Positions 5,552 through 16,312 of a stretch of 64,000 bases of DNA are shown here, piece after piece; position 1 is the stretch's first letter; every line of letters begins with the position of its first letter. The DNA comes from Neonectria sp. B-13. Taxonomy: Eukaryota; Ascomycota; Sordariomycetes; Hypocreales; Nectriaceae. The notes under the pieces are model-generated. The model was not told the DNA's origin. It did no database searches and saw only the letters and a list, made by a program, of their open reading frames with translations. The DNA lies in NCBI GenBank assembly GCA_002682825.1, contig NOKP01000002.1, forward strand, positions 2,573,063 through 2,637,062, given 5' to 3'. Position numbers and translations under genes: made by a program.

Positions 5552-7014
5552 ATGGACTCGCAGGTCAAGTACTTACTCTCTCTACGCGCTATCCGAGAGC
5601 GTGCCAAGGTTGTGGGGGATGTCGCCAAATCCGGGAACTTGAGCCATTTCGAGCTCCGAGAAGATAAACTGGATGATGTTGTCGACTTCGTGGCTTCTGT
5701 CATCAACGTTAGGGCCCAAGACTCCCCCAAGGCCTCTGCGTAGACTAACAGACCCTCTGCTAGCGTGATTACGGTCCCGATAAACATCATATAATCCCCC
5801 CTCATGGGCGCTGGCAGCATTTCGAGGTCGGGAATGTACCGCGTATCGCCAACATCATAGAGGAGTGGAAGAACGAGGGATGTGATAATACTGAGCTGAC
5901 TCGTCGCCTCATCGACCTCTTCTTCGTCTCCGTCCTCTTGGATGCCGGTGCAGGTGATCATTGGCGATACAATGAGCCCAAGACTGATCAAATCTACGAG
6001 CGGAGCGAAGGCATCGCGGTGGCCAGCCTTCACATGTTCAACTCCTTGGCTTTCACGGCCCCAGAGGTCGGAACCATCCCGATGGTCAATGGTAATCGCT
6101 ACGATCCTTGACCTCCGCGTACCCACTAACACATATGGCGCGCAGGGAAGGGTTTGGAAAGACTGGAGACGAGTGTACTTGCGGAGGGCTTCCAAGTGTC
6201 CAATGGTAACCCCATGTTGGGAGTTGATTCTCGTACGGCCCTTCTCAGAAGCCTAGGACAGTCACTGCTTGCTCACCCAGATGTATTCGGGGCCGAAGGC
6301 CGCCCGGGCCACCTTGTCGGTAAAGCTGTTGTCCTTTCCCTCAATAACCCGATTGCTTGCTGATAAATACCCCTAGACTTTCTGATCAAAACAGCCGGCG
6401 AATCCTCCAATCTCGACGTCCTTTTTCTCTGGGACATTCTTCAGACTCTTCTCATTCCGATCTGGCCCAAGGATCGGACGACCATTGGCGGCACACCCAT
6501 CGGCGATGCATGGCCACTGAGTACTCTGCAGAACGGAGCGGCGTCCAGTAGTCCCGATGCTGTTGCGGAAGGCATTCAACCCTTCCACAAACTTACACAG
6601 TGGCTCACCTATTCCTTGATGGTCCCATTCCAGAGGGTATTGGGGATGCAATGGATCAATACTGAATCTCTAACGGCCTTGGCGGAATATCGCAATGGCG
6701 GCTTGTTCGTCGATCTGGGTGTGCTGTCCCTGAAAAAGGAGACACTTGATCGAGGCCTGGAAGCATCGGGCGAGGAACTGCCGCTTTTCGATGCAGGAGA
6801 TGATGTTATAGTTGAATGGAGGGCCATGACATTGGTGCTGATTGACATTCTGTACAGCAAGATTCAGTCTCGCATGGGCGACGGTGTTCATCTGACCATG
6901 GCACAACTGCTTGAGGCTGGTACATGGAAGTCCGGGCGTGAGATCGCAGCACAGCGTCGACCACGAACGAAGTCTAGCCCTATCCTCATCAAGAGCGATG
7001 GCACTGTCTTTTAG
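5552..7014 (+). CDS. URC4: URC4-like uracil catabolism protein (DUF1688)
   Basis: Member of the DUF1688 family, defined in Lachancea kluyveri as URC4, one of the genes needed to use uracil as a nitrogen source by the URC pathway; its exact biochemical step is unresolved. Four exons: 5552-5707, 5764-6091, 6146-6319 and 6377-7014. The introns are 54-57 nt with GT...AG ends, and all joins keep frame, giving about 431 aa, the family's usual length. Diagnostic stretches include RAIRERA near the N-terminus, the block HGRWQHFEVG after the first intron, DAGAGDHWRY, EGIAVASLHMF, WPLSTLQNG and the C-terminal VEWRALT-like VEWRAMTLVLID. No signal peptide or membrane span is seen, so it is probably cytosolic. 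The start is the only ATG before the conserved N-terminal block. Its 3' end faces that of the gasdermin-like gene. Two GATA-type sites lie upstream. Confidence 0.9.
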
Positions 7015-7325
7015 GAGAAACGCATTCTAAGCCAAGCAGGGGGTTCCGGCAGGGAACGACTGGGTTCAAGGATTTTCCGGGGACAGATCTGCTGGGTTTG
7101 TGTGGGAGAAGTAGCTGGACTTAGTTTACACGAGGTCATGCAACGTGCCTGGCGTCTTGCAGTGGACATTCCTTTATTTAAATAGGTAGATGATGATGAC
7201 TGATGAACTCATCAAGCCGGCCCAGATATTGACCCAGCCAGAGGGTGCATGTACGAGCGTTCGGCAAGGGTAGACTAGCAAAAGGAGAGTGAAATCCAGT
7301 TTTTACATCGCGACTTGTCATGCTC
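7015..7325. other. Convergent 3' intergenic region
   Basis: 311 bp between the convergent ends of URC4 and the gasdermin-like gene. It presumably holds both 3' UTRs. No gene or repeat is seen. Confidence 0.6.
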
Positions 7326-8243
7326 TTAAACAACACCGAACGGGAGAAGCCAGATCTCATCTTCGCCCTTAGAATCATGTCCAGTCCAAGGAACTAGACC
7401 TTCTACTTCACCATCGCACAGGTCCGCAATGGTGAAATCAACTTCATCGTCCGGGTCTTCAACCCCCGGCTCGTCATCGTCCACCAGTATTGCATTCTTA
7501 ACCGCTCGTTTCACTGTAAGGGCCGGTTCACCGACGAGGAACGCCCTCTTATGATATATCTTCTGCACTTGGATGCCCAGCACGAAGTCGGCCGGCTTGT
7601 CAAACGACGATACCATCCCCAATTCACCGGAAACTCCCGCTCGAGCCTTTACCTGTACATCAACAGGCCCGCCTGGTGCTTGAACACTTCCCTCTGCCTT
7701 GCCCTCGAAATCTCGGCCGCGTTCCGTGGAGATGGTTGCTCCCCAGGCGATTTTCAACCCTGTGATTAGATACACAGGTTCCTTGTAGTTCGCCATCTCG
7801 TTGTAGTCTTTGACATCCGAGAGCTGTAGACACTTCTTGATGTAGCTTGGCTGGGGATAAAAGTACACCGTCTCCAGCTTCTGGATCTTGTACACGTCCT
7901 CGTCCTTCTTCCGTCCCTTGAGGCTTGCATCACCACTAATGCTGCGGTCAAGGACTTTGGCGAGGACGCTCCCCTCACCGCTGAGGGAAATCTTGAGGCT
8001 GGCTTTGATGTCTTCCTTCATATCGGTGTAGCGTTGGCCTTCCGGGATCGGAACGCGATTGGCAGCGCCTTGGTTGATAGGGTAGTACTGTCTGAGGTCC
8101 TCAACAAGCGTGCCGAGATCGAGGGGCCCATTTGGAAAAGGACGGGTTGTGAAGTTGGGCGCTACATGGTAGGTCGGCTGCTGTTTCTTGAAGACGTCGT
8201 TGGCTTTTGGCCCGAAGTTCATCCTGTATGATCCAATGTCCAC
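7326..8243 (-). CDS. Gasdermin-like pore-forming protein (HET-Q1/RCD-1 type), putative
   Basis: A 305-aa single-exon frame without signal peptide or membrane helix. It matches what is known of fungal gasdermin-like proteins: similar length (about 250-300 aa), a mixed alpha/beta N-terminal body and the recurring block VYKIQKLETVYFYPQPSYIK then EPVYLITGLKIAWGA, followed by amphipathic, beta-hairpin-like segments (residues about 165-215) of the sort that line gasdermin pores. From about residue 255 the C-terminus is strongly acidic (DDDEPGVEDPDDEVDF), a short tail such as is removed by the partner protease in HET-Q1. The next gene upstream on the same strand is a subtilase, as in characterised het-Q1/het-Q2 loci. 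In that family, removal of the tail frees a membrane-permeabilising N-terminal domain and kills the cell. The ATG at 8243 is the first of the frame, but MNF seven codons later or a short upstream exon ending at an ACAG acceptor are possible. The identification rests on recalled family features plus context, not an alignment. Confidence 0.68.
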   Translation of the reverse strand: MDIGSYRMNFGPKANDVFKKQQPTYHVAPNFTTRPFPNGPLDLGTLVEDLRQYYPINQGAANRVPIPEGQRYTDMKEDIKASLKISLSGEGSVLAKVLDRSISGDASLKGRKKDEDVYKIQKLETVYFYPQPSYIKKCLQLSDVKDYNEMANYKEPVYLITGLKIAWGATISTERGRDFEGKAEGSVQAPGGPVDVQVKARAGVSGELGMVSSFDKPADFVLGIQVQKIYHKRAFLVGEPALTVKRAVKNAILVDDDEPGVEDPDDEVDFTIADLCDGEVEGLVPWTGHDSKGEDEIWLLPFGVV

Positions 8244-8730
8244 ACCCGACTGTAATATCCCATAAACTCAAGGAGATGACAGCAAGGAAGCACTAGTGCT
8301 AGGTGGCAGAAGTTGGGAGGGAGAACGGACGATGTGATGGCGAGGGGAGTGATAACCCTGACTCGGGCAGAATAGGTACCCCTCACTAACTGTTGCATTT
8401 CCAGCTGAGGTAACGAGATGTGACATGCTTCCGCCCAATCGGATGATGGGTAACTTACTTGTTTCGGATGATGGGTAACTTACTTGTTGGTTGGCTCCCG
8501 TGCAGCTCGTGGCTTTCACTGACTGGAGGAGCCAGAAGAGGTGGCGCAGAGCTGAAGCCTTCGGGCTTTAGTTGCGTAAGCAAGTGGCCAGGACAGTTTG
8601 CCAAGTCTATCATTATTGTTATCAAAGTGATGTTACACTCGCCGACTAGCTTCTCTGAAATACAGCCACTCGTACATACATACTGCCCTCATGAGTCCCT
8701 GTTTGACCGTTTTTGCTGGTCGCCTTAGCG
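8244..8730. promoter_or_regulatory. Promoter region of the gasdermin-like gene
   Basis: 487 bp between the subtilase stop and the gasdermin-like start, both on the minus strand. It must hold the subtilase 3' UTR and the gasdermin promoter. It contains a perfect 25-bp tandem duplication (8440-8489). No additional reading frame is convincing. Confidence 0.5.
8440..8489. repeat. 25-bp direct tandem duplication
   Basis: Two abutting copies (8440-8464 and 8465-8489) share the core GGATGATGGGTAACTTACTT and differ only near the end of the second unit. They lie about 200-245 bp upstream of the gasdermin-like start codon. The repeat is plainly visible; a role as a doubled regulatory site is only a possibility. 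Confidence 0.85.
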
Positions 8731-11661
8731 CTAGAGATCCTCCATGATGTCCTCAATAGTTTTTGCGGCTTGTCGTTCCGTCCTTGTATCCTGCCAATCC
8801 TTCCACAGGCGCACGGGGTGAACAAAGTCGTAACCATCCCTCTCCTCTGCCATCTTCCGAAAAATCGCCTGCATGCCCCGTTTCCGATGCAGAATCCTCA
8901 ACTTCCTTGGCTTGAGATTGGTACATCTGTACTTTGCAAACTCCAAAACGTCTGCAGCAAAACCCACCGCAATGGGTACTGCAAAGGAGGTCCCGGACTT
9001 CCACAAGTCGTTGCCTTTCCACTTGGAGGGCACCGCAACGCCGAGCGTGGCGAAGTTGTCTCTGTTGGCCATAGGCGAAGGGTTCATACCGCCCTTGTTG
9101 CCCTTACCATCTGTAGCGTGGATGCAGATTACGCCCTCTTGACGCGCAGGCCTGGCACGTCCAGAGAGCCCGCCGTTGTTTGAGGCTGCGGCGATGATGA
9201 GCTTACCAGCGTCAATGGCGTTATCCAGTGCCGCATCGATCAGATCATTTTCGTCTTCAAAGCCGAAAGACATGGAAATGATGTGGGCGTCGCATTCATT
9301 GACGGCCCAATCTATCGCCTGCGCAGCAACATGTCAGCACTTGCGTGGCGCTTGAGAATGAGAGGCAAACCCACTTTTGCAATTCCAGGCATGAATTCAT
9401 CGTTGATGACCTTTCCAGTGCAAATCTTGCCAACGTAGATCTCTGCTGCGGGGGCTGTCTTCAGGAGGAGCTGAGCGACGTGTGTTCCGTGACCATGAGT
9501 GTCCTGCTGCCACTCGTCCGGGCGGCCGACGAAACTCTTGCTCCTCTGGGTATTGATGCGTCCAAATTTGATAGCAGGCCGAATCATCGAGTCCGTATCA
9601 TCTACTCCAGAGTCTAGGACAGCAATTCGGATCTTCTCGTGTGTAGGGTGTTGCGCTAAGCTGATGATATCGTCATGCAGGGTTTGGATCTTTCGGAAGA
9701 AAGGGTTCAAGCCATTGAGAAAACTGGAAGCTGAGATTCTATGCGTAGAAGATATTGTTAAAGGTACTGTCGGTTTGGTACATGCCAGGTTGGGTAGACT
9801 TACTGGTCATCACGCTTGGGCAAGGAATCATCATCGTCAAACAACACCCGCTTTGCGGTGACGGATGGCGAGATATTCATAGGCGCTGTAAGACTGCGAC
9901 CGGGACCAAACATGCCCTTGAAGAGAGGGGCGAGATTTCCAAAACTCTTCATGATATGACGAAATAATGGCTCGAGAATGCATTTGTAGATGACAGCGAG
10001 ACCCTTCCTCTCCGAAATGATGTCCGGATGATCAAGGCTCTCGATGAGGCTGTCGAATTCAAGACATGCTTTCGCGACTCTGCGGTAGTCATCACTAACC
10101 AGGTCTTCCCAAGTCTTCAATACCCGAGCTAGGCGTACGTGGTTTGACTTTTCTCCCGAAATCCAATCTTCGTCACCTGCAGTCCAGTTGGCCTTGCGGT
10201 CAGCCTCTAGTTCCAGGACGAGAACTCCAAAAGCAGCAATGTTGTCACTCTGGAGCCTCATATCCTTTTTAGTCACCAAGGTGCAGAGGACGCGAGGACA
10301 CCACTGCTGAAGCCGCTTGTTGTCTGGCGAAGGCACAAAGATGCATTCTGGTCCTAGGTGCTGTTCGATCCACGGACTATCGCTGAGCTGGAATATGGAG
10401 GCGGCCAGCAAAACCCCTGCCAGTTTCCGGTATTTTAGTGTGAGGCCATCTTTGTGAGTGAGAAGATGATCCAGTGACTGTTCTCCGCCGAAGAGAGCAG
10501 GTGAGTCAAGTCCAGCACCGTTGTTTGAGGCCCACATGCCCTCTGAGTTGAAGGCAACATGCAGCACCTCGGACCCCTCGGGATGTGGCGATGCAGGCGA
10601 GCAAATGTGATCGAAATAGAAGGGCTCCGGCGAGGGTTGTTCAAATGAACTGTGACATTGTTAGAGGGCCGAAAGATTCCTACTGCAGATGGTGCGTCCT
10701 CACCGTGTGAACACGGCAGAAATCCAGTCCGTCTCCTGGCATGTGCCAATATTCATCTTCAATTGGTCTTTCTTGAAACCGGACAGATGAAGCTTTGCCT
10801 GGTGTGGTGTCCCGCATTTGGTGCCGTCCACCATTTGAGAGAACAGCGACGTGCATGTAGAAGCGAAGTCATGGGCATGTTGAATGGCTTCCACGTCTTG
10901 AGGTGTGTAATCCAGCGTCTGGGCCTCCATTGTCCAGGACCCGGCAGAATTGCCCAAAGTCCTGTCCATAGTCATTCCAAAGCGGCTGACCGTCCTCCGA
11001 TATGATTCGATCTTTGTGGCATCTTGGGGGAACCGGATGAAGCTGGCGACCTGTGCTACTGATGTCGGCAAATATCTCCTACTCCAGCTCGATTCCGTGT
11101 GTATAGAGGTAATGTTCGTCTCCGTCAAAGCTGAAGTACCCGTTTCGTCTGCTGAGATGGATCCATCTGGGATATTGTCTGGCGCAGGACTCTCTTGGTT
11201 TTGAAGGAGTTTCCGCAACGCAACGAGCCTGGGAAAGCAGGCGAGAGATTCCGGCTCGAATGTGCGCTAGAGGTAAGATTAACCACCTGAGTGTCTAAAG
11301 AGCTTGGTTCAGAACTCACTTCAAGGTCCTCGTGACTAAGAACTTGGGGATCAATCAGATACTCCAGCTCTTCCAACAGCGTTTGCAAATCCAATTCAAG
11401 CCCCTCGAGGGTGGGATCATCTTCGGGCAACTGATCAAGGTCGACCAGCTGCTGCTTGATGATGTTCAGTTTGAAGTCATTTCGGAGCGTCGTAATCTCA
11501 TTCTTCAAATGATCAACATCATCAACGGTCGCGGAGCCATAGTGGCCTTGGTCGGCACCCTCTACGGTCGGAAGGCTCTCCGCGATGAGAAAAAGCGGAT
11601 GAAGGGTCTGGAGGAAACCCCACCTCGCACGGATCGGAGTTAGATCCGGCATTGCGCGCAT
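8731..11661 (-). CDS. DUF7580 + subtilisin-like serine protease (HET-Q2-like, putative gasdermin activator)
   Basis: Five exons, 11320-11661, 10704-11266, 9804-10649, 9375-9738 and 8731-9318, joined by introns of 53-65 nt in consistent phases, give about 900 aa. Residues 1-115 have a short heptad-like Leu/Glu-rich stretch. The middle (about 370-535) resembles DUF7580, a fungal domain with a degenerate kinase-like pattern (LKYRKLAGVLLAASIFQL, then IAAFGVLVLELE). The C-terminal third is a peptidase S8 domain with an intact triad: Asp626 in VLDSG, His667 in HGHGTHVA and Ser816 in GTSFAVP, plus the oxyanion Asn752 in AASNNG. There is no signal peptide, so it should act in the cytoplasm. It lies immediately upstream of the gasdermin-like gene on the same strand, as HET-Q2 proteases do next to HET-Q1. 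It lacks the ankyrin, TPR or WD repeats some such proteases carry. The start at 11661 is the first ATG of the exon; a further 5' exon cannot be excluded. Confidence 0.82.
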
Positions 11662-12000
11662 TGTTGCGGCTTGGACAACGACTCTAGCCTGTTTGTTCGT
11701 GGATAATTATGGATGCTTCAAGACAAGAACAAGGAAGGATGAACGATGGAAGAAGGATGGGGGGATGGCGAACAGGCAACAAAGGTGTTTTTCGAGGCTG
11801 GACTTCTTTGTTCCCCGATGCAGATGCATGACAAAGCACCCGTCTGGTTTTGGGCATCCGAAGCCCAGCCTGATCAATAAGTATCCTCACTCTCCGTCAA
11901 GCCCTCCATCATACGGCTCGGACGCTATCTCCAGCAAAAACCGCCCCCATAGCGTGCCTCTGGCCTGCCTCACCCTGCTCACTTCAACCGCTGCGACACC
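11662..12000. promoter_or_regulatory. Bidirectional promoter between subtilase and ankyrin genes
   Basis: 339 bp separate the divergent start codons of the DUF7580-subtilase (minus) and the C2H2/ankyrin gene (plus). Such a short shared interval would allow common regulation. No clear consensus element was identified. Confidence 0.5.
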
Positions 12001-14833
12001 ATGGGCCACACGCAAGAGGATATGGCGACAGCCATATTCGACATCACCCACCAATGCCTCGATTCCTTCGATCGGGTTGTGGCCAAGCACGATGAATCAA
12101 TTCTCACACACTCATTTGTTCCAGGCGATGCTGTCACCACTTCCGATAGCCAAAAACGATCCTCTTGCGACTTCTTGGGTCTTCGCAATAGCTTCTTGTT
12201 TTGGATTGACTATACTGGAGCGCTCTCATTGATGAACTCATCACTGGATGGAAGATTGCGGGGCTTGGCAGACATATCCGCCATGGTGATTGAGTTGTTG
12301 GAAATGATTCTACGAAATTTGCACCGCGGTGAGTTTGATTTCATTAACCCAAGCACTATATACCTAAACTTTTTACAAATGGACCGCTGAAGGATATCGG
12401 TCTGCCTCATCAGTTGACCGTAAGCCCGAAGACCTGTCGATACTCTCCTCTGATCCAACGACGTCGGATTCAAAAGCACGACAGACCTTTTTTTCGAAAT
12501 GGGAAAATGCCTCCCGGGCTGTTGACTCTGCGCTAGATCGGTTGCATTTCGTAGCCGTGGCGATTAGGAAAGCATCCGCAAAACGGCTCGATCACACGGT
12601 CACAACCTTGCTCACTGAGGAGGACATTGTCTTTCGCAGAGACAGTGCGTCCTTGGTCCGCTACAGATTTCCAGCTGCCCGCAAAGGACTGTCTCAACAA
12701 CTGGGGGACTCCGTAGCTGTTCGACGCCGAATGCTTCTGCGGAATAATCGTCACGCAAAGAGACTTGCCGTCAGACGTGTGCCCGAGAATGTGCCTTCTG
12801 CCAAACAGCACCGAAATACACATCTGGAACCTAAATTGGCGACAAATCATAAGGTCAAAGATAGGATAGCGCGTCATCCCATTGTGCTAGAAAGCGGCAT
12901 AACCCAGGCTTCTCGCCCAGACCACCAGGCCCCGGCGCTTAGGCATCTTCATCTTCCAAAACCACGGGCTCTCACGACAGTGATCAGCACTATCTCCACC
13001 ACACAAGAGGACTCTTTTGAGTACCCACCAGCACCGACAGCGAGCGAAGGAGAAACACGGGTTCAGTGCCCTTTTTGCTTCATGCCCCTGGAACGCAGAG
13101 AACTGGAGAAAAAGAGAAACGACCACTGGAAACGTCACGTCGACGAGCATCTCAAGCCCTATGGCTGCCTATTCCCCGAATGCGCCGAATCCCTTGTGTT
13201 CTTCGCCCGCCGTCACGAATGGAAGGCGCATATGGAATCTGCCCATTCGAAAGACTGGCTGCGTAAGGTCCACACTATCGTTTGGTATTGTGACATCGAC
13301 CACGACATCCCGGAAACATTCGAGACTGAGTTACAGTGGAGAAAACACATGCAGGACCTCGAGTCCCATCCAAAGCGAAAGCTGACAGCACCAACTCAAG
13401 CTCAGCTTGACGGTCTATCTCCCAGGAAACAACAAGTCGCTCTACGCGACAAATTCGTCTGTCCCCTTTGCGAACAAATTCCCGAGAAGATACGACCTCT
13501 CGTGGAGAAGGGAAAGGGAGAGCCGACGGACATGTACAATTTTGTGGTTGATCATGTCGCGAACCACATGAAATCACTGTCCTTGATGGCAGTGCCGTCT
13601 CTTGGAAATACCACTCAAGAAACCCCTGGCACATCTGGAGAGTCAGTGCTCATGATGAAGGACTCCTTCAAACGACTCATGAATGAGAACTCCGTTCCCC
13701 AGCCACCGAGTGGAAGAGAGCACATTGATGGAACTTCTCTCCCTCCAGAGGCTTGGTCTTTCTTAAATCGAGACAACATTGCTTCTCTCACAAAGTCTGG
13801 TCCGAATTCGTCCTGGGATAAGGAATATTTCGACTACACGCACCCAGAGGATCCTCCGGTGCCATCAGAACAAGAGTGGGTTGAACGTTGGAACTTATGG
13901 AAGAGTGACAATGATCCCTTCTCTCAACACTCCATTGAAACGGATCCAATCCTCGCGCATCTCAATAAAGCGAAAGCAAATACACAAGCAATTGCTTCGG
14001 ATGAGTTCGACATTAACTCAAAAAATGATGCTGGTCGGACGCGGTTGTCGTTCGCAGCTGAGACCGGTGACATCGTGACTGCTCAGCTGCTCTTGGACAA
14101 GGGCGCACACCTCGAGATAGCTGACCAGGATGGCCAGACGCCATTGCTATGGGCAGCTGACAATGGATATGAGGCGATTGTTCGGTTGCTCCTCGATAAT
14201 GGTGCACGTATCGAGGCGGCCGATCAAATATACGGCCGAACGCCGTTGTCATGGGCGGCTTCGAAAGGTCACCAGGCTGTCGTACAGCTGCTCCTCGACC
14301 GAGGCGCAGACTTTGATGCAGCTGATAATTCACGCCGGACACCACTCTCTTGGGCAGCCTCGAGAGGCCACGAAGCTAACGTACGGTTGCTCATGCAATA
14401 TGGTGCAGATATTGAGCTATCTGACCCCAAGTATGGCCGGACACCGCTATCGTGGGCGGTCGTGAGAGGTCACGAGGCCGTTGTGAAGCTGCTCCTTGAC
14501 CATGGCGTAAATGTCGACACCGCTGATCTGGAATACGGCCGGACGCCGCTATCGTGGGCTGCTGAGAACGGGCACAAGGCTATCTTGCGATTACTTCTTT
14601 CTCAGGGCGCAGATATCGAGGCGGTCGATCGGGAATCCAAGCAGACCCCGCTATCGTTCGCCGCTGAGAATGGACATGAGGAAAGTGTGAGGACGCTCCT
14701 AAAGCAGGGAGCAAACCTCGAGGCAACCGACCTGCAAGGCTGGACAGCACTATCGTGGGCGACCGAGAACGGCCATGACAGCATTGTGCGGCTATTACGT
14801 TCACATGATGCCAAAAATCCGTCAAGTCCATGA
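12001..14833 (+). CDS. AcuF-type C2H2 zinc-finger protein with C-terminal ankyrin repeats
   Basis: Two exons, 12001-12328 and 12393-14833, with a 64-nt intron (GTGAGT...TGAAG), give about 922 aa. Residues 1-330 carry no recognised domain; they contain helical, Leu-rich and basic stretches. Residues about 330-500 form a cluster of Cys/His fingers (CPFCFMPL...HWKRHVDEH, CLFPEC...HEWKAHMESAH, CPLCEQIP...VVDHVANHMKSL), the layout seen in the fungal 'oxidoreductase acuF-like' C2H2 domain often found in NLR-like proteins. Residues about 655-915 contain eight ankyrin repeats with a strong internal consensus (GRTPLSWAA.GH.A.V.LLL..GA). There is no NACHT or NB-ARC P-loop, so it is not itself an NLR. 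It diverges from the subtilase gene across a 339-bp promoter. Role unknown; a repeat-based recognition or scaffold role in the adjacent cell-death pair is inference. Confidence 0.8.
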
Positions 14834-15100
14834 ACTACGTCAAGTGACCCGCCACCTGCTCTTCCGCTCTCTTTCATACTACACTATCTACTACATCAAA
14901 TGGGAGTTACCAAAAGTTGACTGCTGAGGGTGGCACCTGCCAGGGACTAGAGCAAAGCAATCAGTGAAAACAGCGTGATGATTCATAAACCATCTTACTA
15001 CAGATCCAAATACAGTAAAATCATTTCCCAAGACTCGTCTCTCGATGGCCACTTCTGCCTGCTTGTTTAATTTTCAATGTTCCAGTCCACACTTGTCTGC

Positions 15101-16312
15101 TCAAGCCCCGCTGGCAATGCTAGGAATTGAGATTGACCGTACACTATCGGCAACTTTGTGGGGGGCATCGAAATTATCGATCTCATCTGCCCAAGGGATG
15201 CCGTCCTGGGCTCCCAGGCTTTGAATCGTGATTGCAGCAGCTTTGTTCGCGCGAACAACCGCGCTCCTGATGTCCCAAGTCCCCTTGGCCTTCTGGCGCA
15301 GGTAGTCAGAGGCATATGCCCCCGTGAAGGTATCTCTAATTATCCTCATCAACATATGCACATGAGAACTAGGAACAGAAACAGAAACTCACCCTGCACC
15401 TGTAGTATCCTCAACTTTGACATCAAACGCGGGACAGTGATCACTTCCTGTTGCGTTGGCGTAAAACGCACCCTTAGCACCAAGTGTGATGACCACGTTT
15501 TTGACACCGCGGTTTAAAAACTCCTGGGCGATGATCGGCCAGGTCTCTTCATTGACCTCGCCCATATCGCGGCCAGACATGATGGCTGCTTCTGACTCAT
15601 TGACCAGAAGATGAGTAAGATGCCAGTAGAAGCGTTTGCCGATAGGGGTTGCAGGCGCCGCATTCAGACAGAACTCAATGCCAGCCTTACCAGCCGTTTC
15701 GATCATAGTCTCGACCACCTCCTTGTTGATTTCCATTTGAGCCACGACTAAGTCGGGGCGTATCCCGCCTCCGAGCTGCTCGGTGTTGACAAAGTCCTCT
15801 TTCTTCCAGGTCGCCGTTGCACCCAGCGTGAAGAGGCACCGGTTCTCGCGTGTCAAGTGCTCGACCATGACGAAGCAGATGCTCGAGCGTGTGTTAGGCA
15901 CTGTCACGACGCCGGAAGCATCAACGCCATTCTTGTTCAATTCGACGATGAACTTCTCTCCGTACCGGTCGCTACCGACTGCGCCGATCATCTTGACCTG
16001 AATATTGTCTTCACCTGAGCAGTCGATCGCGAGTTGCTCTAGTGCGGGTGGGGGCTGCTCGTTGGTTGCTGTTGCTGCATGGTCACCATCGGTTGGCTTC
16101 TCTGGTACCCTATTCTCAGTCGTTCTTTTATTTTCCAACGACTTCTTGTGACAAGTCCGGTACGTCGCAATCGCGGAGTTGGCCCCTTTCCCCCCCAAGG
16201 CTTCCAGGTACTCGTTTGCCAGAACACTCTCCCCGCGGTCGGGGATACGACTCGCAATCATGATCAGATCAGCGTCCAGCCCCCCGATGACTGCGATGGT
16301 CTGCGGCGCCAT
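15101..16312 (-). CDS. Ribokinase (PfkB family)
   Basis: Phosphorylates D-ribose to ribose-5-phosphate in the cytosol. Two exons, 15393-16312 and 15101-15335, with a 57-nt intron, give about 384 aa. The N-terminus has the family beginning IAVIGGLDADLI. PfkB signature 1 is present (EALGGKGANSAIA, about residues 37-49), as is signature 2 with the catalytic Asp (DTTGAGDTFTGAY), whose GAG/DTF join falls exactly at the splice site, which confirms the intron. An insert of about 45 residues after the first signature (charged, Glu/Thr/Pro-rich, about 55-100) makes it longer than bacterial ribokinases (about 310 aa), as is usual in fungi. It faces away from the MFS gene, sharing a 521-bp upstream region. 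Confidence 0.92.

Follow-up and report, generated by a model that had tools for sequence, protein, structure and literature searches.

The stretch analysed here, 64,000 nucleotides of the genome of Neonectria sp. B-13 (contig NOKP01000002.1; hereafter the window), contains three neighbouring genes encoding a fungal gasdermin, a subtilase (S8 protease) with a DUF7580 domain and, head-to-head with the latter, a protein with ankyrin repeats. The presence of these genes, the families to which they belong, the predicted S8 and gasdermin folds, the linkage of the genes in other fungi and a recurring pair of third-family gene and partner in the same genome are established. It seems rather probable to us that they make up a three-gene module in which the ankyrin protein, as a sensor, switches on the subtilase, the subtilase cuts the gasdermin tail, and the resulting pores kill the cell. 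The third protein would sense a signal through an exchangeable tail, here of ankyrin repeats, and would pass it to the protease via DUF7580, two steps that are suggested by gene order and domain swapping. Modelled on the het-Q system as presented in passages of a review (PMC12881547), the subtilase would then cut the gasdermin at about residue 235-260, removing its acidic tail, and the freed gasdermin domain would form membrane pores, leading to cell death. A first-pass annotation of the window had described a gasdermin-like gene and a subtilase gene on the same strand and read this pair as a cell-death module; both genes were found where it placed them, on the minus strand, and its interpretation as a whole is partly supported.

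All gene models were built by hand from the DNA alone, without RNA data. The gasdermin gene is a single exon (7326..8222 including the stop codon, minus strand) encoding 298 amino acids. Its start is the ATG at 8222, the methionine of which is aligned in 54 of 54 rows of the family alignment A1, leaving 508 bp to the stop of the protease gene. The 305 amino acids and the 487-bp gap reported in the first-pass annotation fit an alternative GTG start at 8243 and give way to these values. Pfam yields nothing for this protein up to E 5. Searched against the PDB, the profile of A1 retrieves RCD-1-1 and RCD-1-2 as its sole matches up to E 10 (E 2.4e-11 to 8e-7), and a structure search with the predicted model matches the RCD-1 fold, which is the gasdermin pore-domain fold, rather than an unrelated one. 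The gasdermin identity proposed at first is thus borne out and, judged by profile and predicted fold, the 298-residue protein is a fungal gasdermin, for which pore formation and killing are predicted. Its last 65 residues (7326..7523 with the stop codon) form the acidic tail that had already been remarked upon, with 18 D/E versus 4 K/R, and the corresponding tails are net negative in all 72 homologs in which this is measurable (21 of 93 are not measurable). By analogy with HET-Q1, as told in passages of PMC12881547, this tail is presumed to be an inhibitory piece that is lost on cleavage. The relatives carrying names are all from fungi. Three of the relatives (P0064, P0078 and P0081) are named MFS-1, and five Fusarium and Colletotrichum records (P0111, P0114, P0118, P0119 and P0120) predict a single protein made of protease and gasdermin; in both cases these are either annotation errors or real fusions.

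The protease gene (8731..11661, minus strand) comprises five exons (11661-11320, 11266-10704, 10649-9804, 9738-9375 and 9318-8731) and encodes 900 amino acids. Pfam recognizes DUF7580 at residues 248-531 (E 3.6e-24) and Peptidase_S8 at residues 619-846 (E 1.4e-16). This is the architecture that had been proposed for a protein of approximately 900 residues with an intact Asp/His/Ser triad, and D626, H667 and S816 are indeed all present, together with the oxyanion residue N752. In alignment A3, with 22 external proteases, the aspartate and histidine are conserved in 20 of the 20 rows reaching them and the asparagine and serine in 22 of 22, and all 50 matches listed in a structure search with the model of an ortholog are subtilisin-type chains. 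Judged by sequence, the protein looks like an intact S8 subtilase, likely to cleave the gasdermin. The DUF7580 region (9962..10867, minus strand, with one intron inside), a domain on which the literature search returned no publications, is probably a dead kinase-like domain, equivalent to a C-lobe. Profile comparison of DUF7580 with protein kinases gives a probability of 57% (E 1e-4 for a single comparison), as against 0.1-1.2% for eight controls. When its profile is used in a search, viral kinases appear weakly at ranks 16, 17 and 19 (E 0.42-0.75), below subtilases and a few others. In the alignment with kinases, HRD is absent at the aligned place and the DFG region aligns unclearly. Comparison of the profile of the N-terminal region of the protease with the third protein detected no homology (0.3%).

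The third gene (12001..14833, plus strand) was delimited on the basis of open reading frames, the donor site, ankyrin calls, orthologs and the family profile. It consists of exons 12001-12328 and 12393-14833, an acceptor at 12414 being also in frame, and encodes 922 amino acids. A head-to-head intergenic region of 339 bp (11662..12000), presumably a shared promoter, separates it from the protease gene. The protein has a conserved N-terminal region followed by C2H2-like fingers and eight ankyrin repeats, which are superstructure-forming C-terminal repeats. The fingers are visible by eye and in database names; none is recognized by Pfam in the copy of the window, where ankyrin is the only domain above the cut-off and neither NB-ARC nor NACHT is called. 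Without a nucleotide-binding domain, the protein is by definition not a NOD-like receptor (NLR). The repeats of allorecognition receptors are highly self-similar. The ankyrin repeats of the window fall short of this, with a mean pairwise identity of 49%, and Tandem Repeats Finder detected no tandem array over 13800-15000. In the first-pass annotation, the lack of repeats on the protease was taken as the mark of a variant system; the protease indeed bears none, but the unit considered was incomplete. As the repeats reside on the third, head-to-head gene, their absence from the protease looks like a division of labour.

The same three families recur together in other fungi, with matches to all of them on at least nine contigs. 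Sharing of a contig was judged by a proxy, equal length of the longest contig of the matches, only the longest contig being listed; 7996 and 7991 candidates were scored for the protease and the third protein, respectively, and the figures refer to the matches listed. Eighteen of the 31 protease matches share their length with a gasdermin match, where a smooth length model predicts 0.02, in agreement with the gasdermin-subtilase association invoked from the start. The first 620 residues of the third protein, used as query, gave at least 54 matches, and 20 of the 54 listed share their length with a gasdermin or a protease match. Triangularia verruculosa is an example, its matches P0035, P0097 and P0132 agreeing in length. 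The proxy is borne out by consecutive locus tags for the three genes in four fungi: Fusarium oxysporum (FOVG_01374-01376), Monosporascus (DL771_004406-004408), Kalmusia (N0V90_001011-001013) and Cephalotrichum (DNG_01668-01670). In trees of ten taxa each, the window sequence groups with Bisporella and Triangularia, with supports of 92/94 for the gasdermin, which falls below the tool's mark of 95/80, and of 100/100 for both the protease and the third protein; Fusarium oxysporum is placed apart from this group in all three trees. The grouping presumably spans fungal classes. From these comparisons, it seems that the three genes were passed on, or moved, as one unit.

Between orthologs of the third protein, the tail is exchanged, and NB-ARC-TPR, WD40, kinase and DUF7104 tails all occur on linked ones. 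P0134 carries NB-ARC and TPR with a P-loop, thereby joining C2H2 fingers and NLR parts within a single protein, and P0176 carries NB-ARC, also with a P-loop. P0161 ends in WD40, P0171 in a kinase domain in which a pattern search found neither HRD nor DFG, and the linked ortholog P0130 in 12 DUF7104 repeats that are, by eye, near-identical in part. Many further orthologs have an ankyrin tail, and for P0150 no tail domain was called. P0126 is a NACHT-ankyrin member of the family with a P-loop, the linkage of which to the module is not established.

Additional loci exist in the genome of Neonectria sp. B-13 itself. Before counting, inverted duplicate stretches were folded: three pairs proved, on comparison, to be 100% identical over ~9.7-9.9 kb, and one of each was dropped; duplicate pairs on contigs C50, C56 and C1 were judged by equal scores alone. 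The three compared pairs are inverted copies on C20 (L014/L015), C38 (L017/L018) and part of C105 (L009/L010). C20 and C38 look like whole palindromes, since their paired coordinates sum to the full length plus one; they are probably hairpins of the assembly, by which gene counts are doubled. The searches found eight distinct gasdermin loci, and an S8 gene adjoins the gasdermin gene at each of them. CHAT proteases account for 12 rows in the genome and for none at the gasdermin loci found, the nearest lying ~27 kb away, on C66. At six of the eight loci (the window, C105, C49, C66, C39:272k and, weak and decayed, C73) a third-family gene faces the protease. The remaining third-family loci are C42, C48, C50, C56, C1 and C39:3.9M (one copy of each was read). 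At C42, C48, C50, C39:3.9M and C1 the partner starts with MSG(F/L)EVAG, and DUF7580 is called in the first four of these; at C56 the partner is an S8 gene in which DUF7580 is not called. All 12 third-family loci found are therefore paired head-to-head, seven with a subtilase (six of them beside a gasdermin) and five with an MSGFEVAG-type protein, and nine of the 12 partners have a DUF7580 call. The head-to-head gap at four other measurable loci, of ten tried, is 273-542 bp. A rough calculation, which is not a test, gives a negligible probability that so few genes would lie close together by chance in a genome of ~61 Mb.

Some of these loci show particularities of their own. The C105 subtilase (L009, ~6770-7254) has lost most of DUF7580, keeping only its end, and retains the N-terminal part, the S8 domain and the gasdermin and sensor neighbours. 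The C73 locus (L012, L021) is full of TAG/TAA stops, a decay that resembles repeat-induced point mutation in look, and contains frames close to the third gene with TPR-like repeats, as seen by eye. The sensor-family protein on C66 (L022:3506-5671) has another type of tail, with DUF7896 and annexin matches at its end. At C38 (L017:7903-8955), a divergent WH1 and DUF7104-repeat frame with seven stretches flanks the protease on its far side; since DUF7104 repeats are also found on P0130, this repeat is common to unrelated N-termini. A ninth gasdermin, suggested at C56 (L029) by a short motif seen by eye, was not counted: the broad gasdermin profile gives E 3, and the motif piece as query matched only itself and its own inverted copy. 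Among the five DUF7580 genes that have no third-family match nearby, two (C35:1537140 and C50:2072011) have a protein kinase gene at a distance of ~4 kb.

A wider scheme may be put forward tentatively, as a possibility that we hold to be well short of probable. One modular sensor family, acting via the dead kinase-like DUF7580, might command either an MLKL-like membrane killer, in a necroptosis-like death, or a gasdermin-freeing subtilase, in a pyroptosis-like death, within an uncontracted inflammasome-like pathway. Both types of killer would be run from one receptor platform, the tails of which may be of the ankyrin, NB-ARC-TPR, WD40, kinase or another type. The MSGFEVAG domain is taken to be HELL or HeLo-like, an assignment that is not confirmed; compared with solved structures, this N-terminal domain gave nothing significant (best E 0.015, a glucosidase subunit).

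Several observations weigh against the proposed sensor-protease-gasdermin module. The third protein of the window is devoid of a nucleotide-binding domain, and its C2H2-like fingers could point to DNA binding. Beyond its core the gasdermin model is poor, with a mean predicted local distance difference test (pLDDT) score of 63 and 75 residues at 90 or above. Among the third-protein matches listed, 34 of 54 share no length with the other families, many of them lying on short metagenome contigs, and two of the eight gasdermin-S8 loci, C20 and C38, are without the third family. DUF7580 is not indispensable, given that the C105 protease keeps only its end and the C56 protease is without it. Furthermore, 5 of 14 distinct DUF7580 loci (C44, C35, C50:2.07M, C1:3.86M and C94) have no third-family match nearby, their flanking DNA not having been read. 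Finally, the third-family pairs are paralogs and hence not independent events; they reflect an old linkage that has been retained repeatedly, not twelve separate events.

In the strongest rival, the shared promoter would be controlled by the zinc-finger-like third protein, acting as a C2H2 transcription regulator, and the DUF7580-subtilase itself would be the sensor of an ordinary two-gene system. The zinc-finger-like blocks, database names such as 'transcription factor Zn, C2H2' and the head-to-head gaps, in the window as well as at the four other loci, fit such a role. However, the variable tails of the orthologs (NB-ARC-TPR, WD40, kinase, ankyrin, DUF7104) are receptor-like and would be needless for a DNA-binding regulator, and Pfam recognizes no zinc finger in the copy of the window, so that we consider this explanation unlikely. 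Slightly less credence is given to an allorecognition (het) locus, variants of which would kill on hyphal fusion, a role that is not exclusive of the proposed module. Passages of PMC12881547 count het-Q and rcd-1 among the het loci based on gasdermins, yet place the vast majority of fungal gasdermins outside allorecognition; the partly near-identical repeats of the linked ortholog P0130 are in favour of such a locus and the 49% average identity of the window repeats is not.

That the third gene is merely an old neighbour of a pair of the HET-Q1/HET-Q2 type appears improbable. The gasdermin-protease pair is a known unit, as stated in passages of PMC10197012, and C20 and C38 carry it without the sensor family, but linkage of the three families on at least nine contigs of other fungi, the agreement of the trees and the pairing of 12 out of 12 sensor loci argue for more than old proximity. 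Least probable is a gasdermin that works uncleaved, like RCD-1, through pairing of allelic forms: the RCD-1 proteins are the only solved relatives found by sequence, but the acidic tail is kept in the measurable homologs, and a protease with an intact triad is a recurrent neighbour. The sensor-protease-gasdermin module is the reading that we retain. It is flanked by metabolic-looking genes (DUF1688 and PfkB; 6367-7011 and 15389-16312), forming an island of defence-like genes between them.

The combination of gasdermin and protease is already known; the separate head-to-head third gene with an exchangeable tail is new as far as the literature was covered. No description of this third family beside gasdermins was found in the titles, abstract starts and passages of the papers listed; the Clave 2022 survey falls outside this scope and may have it. 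No literature joining gasdermin, C2H2 and Fusarium was found when looked for. Passages of a 2025 review (PMC12881547) name the control of gasdermin-activating proteases in fungi as an open question; the field is also reviewed in PMC10989679. The recurrent third gene provides a concrete candidate for such a controller.

In Podospora anserina, het-Q1 and het-Q2, reportedly the subject of Clave 2022, encode a gasdermin and an S8 protease. The likeness with the present system lies in a fungal gasdermin with a short C-terminal piece and an activating S8 protease, activation being here a prediction. According to passages of PMC12881547, however, het-Q1 and het-Q2 are idiomorphs, whereas here a gasdermin gene and a protease gene occur in one genome, accompanied by a third, and DUF7580 and an N-terminal region are present on the protease. 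In Q2L two-gene clusters, a gasdermin gene likewise adjoins a multidomain protease gene, the protease having ANK/TPR/WD40 repeats or an NLR as its fusion partner; kinase-like fusions and, generally, two- or three-gene clusters are mentioned as well (passages of PMC10197012 and PMC12881547). In contrast, the repeats are here on a separate head-to-head protein with a tail varying between orthologs, and these passages describe no constant third family. C2H2 fingers, most of them C-terminal, are reported for 34 Sordariales NLRs in passages of PMC12258605, in the text of which the word gasdermin is absent; the ortholog P0134 likewise joins C2H2 fingers and NLR parts, the families being compared by description only. 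HELL/MLKL-type membrane proteins with a kinase or pseudokinase domain are described in passages of PMC12881547, and the sensor family found here also faces MSGFEVAG-type proteins, four out of five with DUF7580; the HELL identity of the MSGFEVAG domain is not confirmed. If the sharing of DUF7580 between two killers is true, necroptosis-like and pyroptosis-like death would be tied to one receptor family.

In mammals, the pathway runs from an NLR inflammasome over caspase-1 to gasdermin D. Compared with this inflammasome, as it appears in passages of PMC10197012, there is likewise a separate receptor-like protein, a protease and a gasdermin, sensing and complex formation being predicted here from genes alone; a subtilase takes the place of the caspase, no adaptor is known, and the sensor of the window is without a nucleotide-binding domain. 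In certain fungal two-gene systems, which the same passages describe as contracted, the caspase-like protease is physically built into the receptor. A fungal pathway in which sensor, protease and gasdermin are separate proteins would parallel the animal inflammasome in its layout.

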